42,112 nucleotides of DNA, taken from contig SUWZ01000031.1 of assembly GCA_015061185.1 (NCBI GenBank), positions 1 to 42,112 of the forward strand. The letters run 5' to 3'. This DNA is from Bacteroidales bacterium (GTDB taxonomy: Bacteria; Bacteroidota; Bacteroidia; Bacteroidales; Paludibacteraceae). The position numbers and the translations under genes were made by a program. The notes beneath the pieces were generated by a model. It did not search any database. It saw only the letters and a program-made list of their open reading frames with translations, and was not told the origin of the DNA. This document shows, one piece after another, positions 2,153 through 3,344 of this stretch (within the stretch, counting starts at the first letter, position 1; the number at the start of each line of letters is the position of its first letter).

Positions 2153-2647
2153 TTAACATTTTTCCTTCTTTTTCTCTAATCGTCCTGCCGTGGTTGCTCC
2201 GGCTCTTTCTGCGCCTTTGTAAAACCGTTCCCCCTCTTGTGTTGCCATCAGAAAGGCTTCTCCCAGCTCTTCTGCAGAGATGCCTCCCGCACTCATTCTC
2301 TCTTTCAATTGAGCAATGCTTTCTCCCGTCTTTCTGCTGATGACCTCCAACGAGTTGAACCCTGCATTAATCATCTGCATCAGATCCTGTCCCATCAATT
2401 TTCCGGATGCAGTGGCTTGCGAAAATGCCAATGCCAGCGATTTCATCTTCTCTTTGTCTCCCAAAGCAATATCACCAATGTTTTGCAGTCTTTCAAAAGC
2501 AAAGTCTGCACTCAACCCGAACGACATCATTGTTTTCTGTGCCTCCAAGAGGGTGGTGCGGTCGTATGGGGTGGAAGAACCATATTTGGTTATGCTCTCG
2601 GAAAGGCGTTCTTCCGCCTCTGCATTGCCATTGAGCAAGGTAAGCAT
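2153..2647 (-). pseudogene. Fragment of a phage tail tape-measure protein
   Basis: The 164 codons read as an internal piece of the N-terminal tape-measure domain found in phage and prophage tail proteins. Landmarks are SITKYGSSTPYDRTTLLEAQ, FGLSADFAFERLQNIGD, a KLMGQDLMQMINAGFNSLEVI block, and GGISAEELGEAFLMATQEG. The first part of that domain is missing, and so are the many hundreds of residues that normally follow, because the frame stops after RLEKKKEKC. No other tail, head or lysis gene lies nearby. It is therefore best read as a relic of a decayed prophage or imported tail cluster. It abuts the tandem small-RNA units. Confidence 0.7.
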
Positions 2648-2693: not shown

Positions 2694-2793
2694 AAAAAAA
2701 AATGGTCGGAATAAATCCAACCATTTCCTCGGTGCGAACGCCCAAAGTGCTATGCTAAGGGAAAGTTGCGCCGACAGCCCATTTAAGGGACAC
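2694..2793 (-). ncRNA. Candidate small RNA, copy 1
   Basis: A unit of about 100 nt with its own promoter (2800-2830) and an intrinsic terminator. The terminator stem is 11 bp (2716-2726 with 2700-2710), has a 5-base loop and is followed by a T run. Upstream of it, GCG-C-AAC and CCC (2771-2765, 2761-2759) can pair with GGG and GTTCGC (2743-2741, 2739-2734). A small CCC/GGG hairpin (2789-2787, 2780-2778) lies near the 5' end. There is no start codon with an ORF of useful length. The second copy, 132 bp away, preserves these features. The RNA family is not recognised. Confidence 0.65.
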
Positions 2794-2799
2794 GCTTAA

Positions 2800-2830
2800 C
2801 AAATATACAACAAATAATTGAAGTAACAAA
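2800..2830 (-). promoter_or_regulatory. Promoter of small RNA copy 1
   Basis: The minus strand has TTTG (2830-2827), 19 bases and TATATTTG (2807-2800), matching the Bacteroidetes consensus exactly. Predicted transcription start is near 2793. It overlaps the T-run of the terminator of copy 2, so the two units are packed end to end. Confidence 0.7.
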
Positions 2831-2923
2831 AAAATGGTCGGAACAAATCCAACCATTTCCTCGGTGCGAACGCCCAAAGTGCTATGCTAAGGGAGGTTGC
2901 GCCGATCCGCTCATTTAAGAGAC
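2826..2923 (-). ncRNA. Candidate small RNA, copy 2
   Basis: The second unit is nearly identical to copy 1 through its 3' two-thirds and diverges at the 5' end. The terminator stem (2848-2858 with 2832-2842) is unchanged and differs only in one loop base. The 5' mini-hairpin reads CTC/GAG where copy 1 reads CCC/GGG, so the middle pair changed on both sides. The promoter differs in sequence but keeps the consensus. Conserved structure with diverged flanks suggests a functional RNA rather than a passive duplication. Confidence 0.65.
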
Positions 2924-2929
2924 TTATTG

Positions 2930-2960
2930 CAAAAGTATAGGAAATAATTGAAATAAGCAA
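2930..2960 (-). promoter_or_regulatory. Promoter of small RNA copy 2
   Basis: The minus strand has TTG (2960-2958), 20 bases and TACTTTTG (2937-2930), matching the Bacteroidetes pattern. Predicted transcription start is near 2923. Confidence 0.65.
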
Positions 2961-3280
2961 TTATCGGGTATTTAAAACAAAAAAAATAAAAATTCCAGAA
3001 TACAGTTAGTGGGGACCTAAGCCAAATTAAAATTCTATATTTACAGGGTTTAAACGATACCAAATTCATTTAAATTCACGCACTGAAAAACGAAGCCCTT
3101 GTTGAACACACACTACGAAGAGGCATCCCCATTTATGAGCGAAAAAGGGTGGAGCAATTATGCGGATAAAATCAAAGCAATAGAGAAATAAGAGAGAAAA
3201 GTTTCAGAGTAATAAAGGTATGATTCAAGTAAGATGATAGATTTTGATTTATCCGAAACATATCAAATTAACACGAAAAT
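2961..3280. other. Gene-free stretch with a possible decayed coding fragment
   Basis: No intact gene is visible. On the plus strand about 3086-3186 reads as an open stretch of some 33 codons (KNEALVEHTLRRGIPIYE...) preceded by a stop, and a neighbouring frame continues as MSEKGWSNYADKIKAIEK and a stop. The look is of a frameshifted relic, but the family is not recognised. Confidence 0.3.
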
Positions 3281-3317
3281 AAAAAAATAGTAAAGACGGT
3301 ACTCTGACCGTCTTTAC
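3281..3317 (-). terminator. Intrinsic terminator of the adhesin-OmpA-PorP operon
   Basis: On the minus strand GTAAAGACGGT (3317-3307), a 6-base loop and ACCGTCTTTAC (3300-3290) pair perfectly over 11 bp and are followed within two bases by seven Ts (3287-3281). It sits 28 bp past the stop codon of the PorP/SprF gene. Confidence 0.92.
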
Positions 3318-3344
3318 CCAAATAACTTTAAAAATTCATGAATA

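Follow-up and report, generated by a model that had tools for sequence, protein, structure and literature searches.

A tandem pair of putative sibling small RNA genes conserved between two species of one Paludibacteraceae genus

Our analysis revealed a tandem pair of similar units on the minus strand of the window, by which we mean the whole stretch of 42,112 nucleotides analysed here (contig SUWZ01000031.1 of a Bacteroidales bacterium), and the sequence evidence supports these units as small-RNA genes. The anatomy of the units, the presence of the tandem pair in two species, the constraint on its sequence and the lack of any Rfam match are established. The explanation that we consider probable is that the units are two sibling trans-acting small RNAs (sRNAs) of narrow distribution, which arose by an old tandem duplication.

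The original prediction was of a tandem pair on the minus strand in which each unit has a promoter, about 100 nt and a terminator, and it is borne out by pattern matches and hairpins. The repeat period is 132 bp, with the 5' GTC at 2923 in copy 1 and at 2791 in copy 2, and in each unit a match to the Bacteroidetes-type promoter TTG-n-TAnnTTTG is followed by some 100 nt and then by a strong terminator hairpin (Table 1). Each terminator is a 15-bp stem closed by a 5-nt loop and followed by a T-run, at -18.3 kcal/mol for the first and -17.7 kcal/mol for the second, and the end of the first overlaps the TTG of the second promoter. No open frame of at least 80 aa lies over the RNA pair, and a plus-strand frame at 2316-2714 reaches 21 bases into unit 2.

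Table 1. Features of the two minus-strand units, in positions of the window
Feature	Positions	Strand	Description and basis
Copy 1 promoter	2930..2960	-	TTGCTTATTTCAATTATTTCCTATACTTTTG; TTG, 20-nt spacer, TACTTTTG; pattern match
RNA gene copy 1 (putative)	2828..2925	-	5' end deduced from the promoter, 3' end at the T-run
Copy 1 5' mini-hairpin CTC-TTAAAT-GAG	2910..2921	-	In the minimum-energy fold; paired change relative to copy 2
Copy 1 core, loop UUAGCAUAGCACUUU	2862..2904	-	Possible stems CGG/CCG, GC/GC, AAC/GUU, CCC/GGG
Copy 1 intrinsic terminator	2828..2862	-	15-bp stem, 5-nt loop, T7; missed by the stock scan
Copy 1 10-codon open frame MSGSAQPPLA, stop UAG	2882..2914	-	
Copy 2 promoter	2800..2829	-	TTGTTACTTCAATTATTTGTTGTATATTTG; TTG, 19-nt spacer, TATATTTG; pattern match
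RNA gene copy 2 (putative)	~2694..2793	-	Same basis: sequence, fold and alignment to copy 1
Copy 2 5' mini-hairpin CCC-TTAAAT-GGG	2778..2789	-	Fold and alignment to copy 1
Copy 2 core	2730..2773	-	Possible stems and loop as in copy 1
Copy 2 intrinsic terminator	2696..2730	-	Stem pattern; also flagged by the stock scan
Copy 2 10-codon open frame MGCRRNFPLA, stop UAG	2750..2782	-	

According to PMC7366714, the housekeeping promoter consensus of Bacteroides is TTTG near -33 and TAnnTTTG near -7. Two matches to the promoter pattern were found on the minus strand of a 500-bp region, where 2000 dinucleotide shuffles gave 0.139 on average (P 0.0095). By itself the pattern is not rare: across the whole window it is met 13 times on the minus strand and twice on the plus strand. 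The promoters had been said to differ between the copies while keeping the consensus, and in fact both match TTG and TAnnTTTG. Despite a drifted -7 region they have in common the spacer sequence TTCAATTATTT (2812-2822 and 2942-2952, minus strand), which may be a regulator site or may reflect mere descent; its exact matches in the window are the two RNA promoters only, and at up to one mismatch it is not enriched there (7 found, 5.4 expected). By pattern each copy has its own promoter and its own intrinsic terminator; a stock scan flagged copy 2 only, its yield being about at shuffle level (one sigma-70-type promoter with 1.5 expected, and one terminator, that of copy 2, with 0.7 expected).

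A DNA search of 101 genomes, namely the own genome (G000) and 100 relatives, found the units in G000 and G012 only. The latter, taken to be a Paludibacteraceae MAG from yak caecum, belongs to the same genus and carries the same tandem pair as a second species. When G000 is aligned to G012, the block that extends from promoter 1 through terminator 2 (2694-2965) differs at 4 of 272 positions. In three noncoding stretches beside it (1517-1850, 2648-2693 and 2966-3340) the count is 106 of 755 (Fisher P 7e-11), and at fourfold sites it is 495 of 3255 (P 7e-14); second codon positions differ at 115 of 7911, the codon sites being counted in 16 open frames taken as genes. The run of low divergence extends roughly from the first promoter to the last T-run, and it is about ten times less diverged than the three noncoding flanks. 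Another noncoding stretch, at 2036-2152 before rpsU, is likewise conserved (2 of 117 positions differ) and was left out of the flank count. Low divergence is common elsewhere in the contig, where 5% of 272-bp windows have at most 2 differences, and what is telling, therefore, is the combination of a noncoding block with unconserved DNA on both sides.

Two of the four differences in the block fall at length-variable A-runs and the other two in copy 1. More specifically, promoter 1 (2929-2965) has none in 37 positions, copy 1 (2831-2928) has 2 in 98 from its orthologue, promoter 2 (2799-2830) has 1 in 32, at an A-run, and copy 2 (2694-2798) has 1 in 105 from its orthologue, at a T-run. On this comparison the RNA pair looks strongly as if it were preserved by selection. 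That the similarity is due to chance, or to a functionless sequence recently exchanged, seems extremely improbable: there are only two orthologous pairs and a recent exchange of 270 bp between the species could mimic constraint, but the exchanged piece would need to coincide with the span from promoter 1 to terminator 2.

The own genome contains the unit in two copies, which form a highly similar pair in sequence, as is asked of sibling sRNAs. From GTC on they are identical in 82 of 98 columns with no inner gap, and upstream of GTC in 24 of 44; when a one-base gap is allowed, the core of both copies becomes almost identical. Between the species each copy is almost the same, and since orthologues (98% identity) are closer than paralogues (93%), the duplication is older than the species split. 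The cores of the paralogues were kept while promoters and 5' ends drifted, which lends support to the sRNA reading. Moreover, the gene after terminator 2 stands at a different distance and in a different context in the two species, so that a cis-acting leader is unlikely; an attenuator or riboswitch leader was also rejected, as the promoter of copy 2 follows copy 1 and the distance to the next frame after copy 2 varies.

With regard to folding, the two forms of the 5' mini-hairpin, CTC/GAG for copy 1 and CCC/GGG for copy 2, are just as claimed, but the paired change, put forward as evidence of structure, does not go beyond chance. It amounts to one pair, the second species brings no further paired change, and by arithmetic 3 of the 15 position pairs in a 6-position stem are partners, a chance for two changes that makes the paired change weak evidence. 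The core stems of the original prediction can form in both copies, but the core fold is ordinary and no better than that of shuffles: when the terminator is left out, comparison with 1000 shuffles gives z values of -0.43 and -0.71 (P 0.31 and 0.21). The whole transcripts reach z -2.67 and -3.09, and as the core alone is ordinary, these values owe much to the terminator. Both substitutions of the second species fall at unpaired positions of the fold, a placement that agrees with it without proving it.

The opposite, plus strand folds better than the minus strand (-23.0 and -24.3 kcal/mol), owing to two G-U pairs in a 9-bp stem, and the conserved thing might accordingly be the DNA itself, for example a protein-binding palindrome or a recombination site, or a plus-strand antisense RNA. 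We regard this as very unlikely, as the promoter matches and T-runs are all on the minus strand, no promoter match and no T-run being found on the plus strand in the region of the RNA pair, and the constraint covers the promoters and terminators too.

The 10-codon frame of each copy runs from the 5' mini-hairpin to a stop inside the core loop, and the units could be translated leader peptides or dual-function RNAs, in which translation of the frame controls the RNA. The AUG and UAG are equally spaced in the four copies that the two species carry between them, the one-base core gap between the paralogues is cancelled by a one-base difference in the preceding linker, and UUAAAUG, in an A/T-rich context, precedes the start of the frame. 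However, the middle residues differ between the paralogues (MSGSAQPPLA versus MGCRRNFPLA), the changes of the copy 1 orthologue within the frame are one silent and one Pro to Leu, and such a frame is short enough for chance occurrence. Moreover, copy 1 has no gene after it to attenuate because the next promoter follows terminator 1; on balance a translated unit of this sort is unlikely. A translation-gated twin sRNA, whose frame leads from the 5' hairpin to the seed loop so that ribosome movement decides the access to the seed, is quite improbable; if true, it would mean gating in two species without a found Hfq or RRM chaperone.

The original prediction of an undescribed RNA agrees with the family searches, where no family of Rfam (release 15) reaches its gathering cut-off over the RNA pair. 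The window has 2 Rfam matches, both tRNAs and neither over the pair, and the G012 copy has none; 10 weak matches obtained at permissive E-values were rejected, the best being LhrA with 18.1 bits against a cut-off of 100. A core model of 47 positions, R1, places the pair in 2 of 16 genomes of the genus. In the large searches with R1, where 17-20 candidates per genome were scored under strict filters and diverged homologues may be lost, 16 of 358 family genomes had matches at E up to 1, namely the two known ones and 14 weak ones, and 295 genomes of the order gave one extra match. Thirteen of the 14 weak family matches were inspected (that of G500 is not among them), and all lie within open frames of at least 130 codons from stop to stop. 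The extra match of the order was rejected as a homologue, since the stretch looks like an antisense reading of what we take, by a motif, to be polA.

A search for the 18-base core pattern without mismatches met a single contig, from Paludibacteraceae bacterium RGIG9480 (yak caecum), in a species-genome collection that covers 84,980 species with contigs of at least 3 kb and from which the window's own record may be absent. A literature search for the exact loop letters found none, and among the matches listed for published work on Bacteroidetes noncoding RNA, on Paludibacter and on Bacteroides sibling sRNAs the pair is not described in the portions of text retrieved. As judged from sequence, the pair is a new and narrow family of a known kind, that of putative twin regulatory RNAs.

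The first feature downstream of the pair is a fragment from the N-terminal part of a phage tape-measure protein (2153-2647, minus strand; PF20155, PHROG 9959). Beyond it come what looks by eye like rpsU (S21), at about 1843-2034, a Xer-kind tyrosine-recombinase gene and a ribosome hibernation factor gene (the last two by Pfam). Just before the ATG of the tape-measure fragment, a promoter-like site TATCTTTG was read by eye. On the upstream side the plus strand has, at about 3147-3191, the tail end of a gene reading GWSNYADKIKAIEK, by eye. Other genomes contain DNA matches to this tail end, and a single contig of G020 has three; of the matches that were examined, three end longer frames, which by their repeat pattern presumably code for leucine-rich-repeat surface proteins. 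A PorP/SprF gene follows past this leucine-rich-repeat-like remnant. With the tape-measure fragment and the broken gene end around it, the RNA pair sits among broken genes.

In such surroundings the pair could also be regulatory RNAs from a decayed prophage or mobile element, kept for host benefit or for blocking related phages. The tape-measure fragment adjoins the pair and is present in the same 2 of 16 genus genomes, and in G012, where the phage remnant is longer, a stretch of 1.2 kb is 92% identical to phage contig L085. Nevertheless we hold this origin to be improbable: the phage similarity in G012 ends about 95 bp before the RNA pair, where L085 goes on with other open frames, the RNA model gives nothing at E up to 1 in 35 tape-measure phage loci, and two exact core patterns, one of 17 bases, are absent from the viral contigs. 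A third pattern met 3 stretches in the viral contigs (15.6-18.9 bits with R1), which are G+C-rich and were taken as chance. In a phage collection 13 records matched no more than 14% of the query length each, over the A/T-rich stretch of promoter 2; the plasmid collection gave no match, and the right-flank DNA had no match to phages.

If the units are two sibling trans-acting sRNAs, as we consider probable, each RNA, of about 95-102 nt, would be transcribed from its own housekeeping-type promoter to its own intrinsic terminator. It would pair with mRNAs in trans via the near-unchanged stretch UCCCUUAGCAUAGCACUUUGGG, which is largely loop and, being common to the four copies, is proposed as the seed. 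The drift of 5' ends and promoters would serve to adjust the expression or stability of each copy, and the copies may be redundant.

Complements of the loop, allowing at most 2 mismatches, show no enrichment in either genome: G000 has 8 sites and its reversed control 16, G012 has 11 and its control 12, and in each genome two of the sites are the RNA genes themselves. The contexts were viewed for the 6 non-RNA sites of G000 and for 1 of the 9 of G012. One other such site is identical in both species (L069, about 1501-1515, 15 nt with 2 mismatches), and it lies about 110 nt before a gene that by eye is radical-SAM-like, but upstream of the likely promoter of that gene. When 26 start regions of the window were searched for duplexes, the best P was 0.01 uncorrected, and nothing remained after correction. 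As for protein partners, Hfq was not found in either of the two genomes, and an RRM protein (PF00076, E up to 1e-5) was found in neither, the control being positive in Bacteroides ihuae; the action of the RNAs would therefore be protein-independent or via another partner. SusC genes as FopS-like targets were set aside, the genome having one above the curated cut-off.

Among the known systems, PrrF1/PrrF2, OmrA/OmrB and AbcR1/AbcR2 are tandem sibling sRNAs, according to PMC4211561. The present pair is like them, as there described, in having two related small RNAs side by side; it differs in that no Hfq was found here and that it was found in two species, the sequence relation being judged through Rfam alone. 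FopS of Bacteroides thetaiotaomicron, as PMC11697453 presents it, is about 65-70 nt long, has a single-stranded 5' seed, binds RbpB and represses SusC-type genes; it also has the canonical promoter type and several paralogues, and its sequence is reported from a phage. In these accounts FopS and GibS are, like the RNAs here, Bacteroidales sRNAs with an intrinsic terminator (PMC11697453; PMC7366714), and FopS shares with them the canonical promoter type and the paralogues. In contrast to FopS so described, the present RNAs are about 100 nt long, and they come with no RRM protein found and with one SusC above the cut-off. Compared by description, membership of the pair in FopS is not supported; an RRM partner of the RbpB type was found in neither genome. 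By analogy we favour the view that the pair resembles FopS in setting and would work like the PrrF or OmrA/B tandem siblings.

RNA families limited to two species easily escape searches of the Rfam type. A pair that has stayed intact along its whole transcription unit, amid the decaying remnants of phage and surface-protein genes, would make a clean example on which narrow-range regulation in gut Bacteroidales can be tested, in genomes where neither Hfq nor an RRM chaperone was found.
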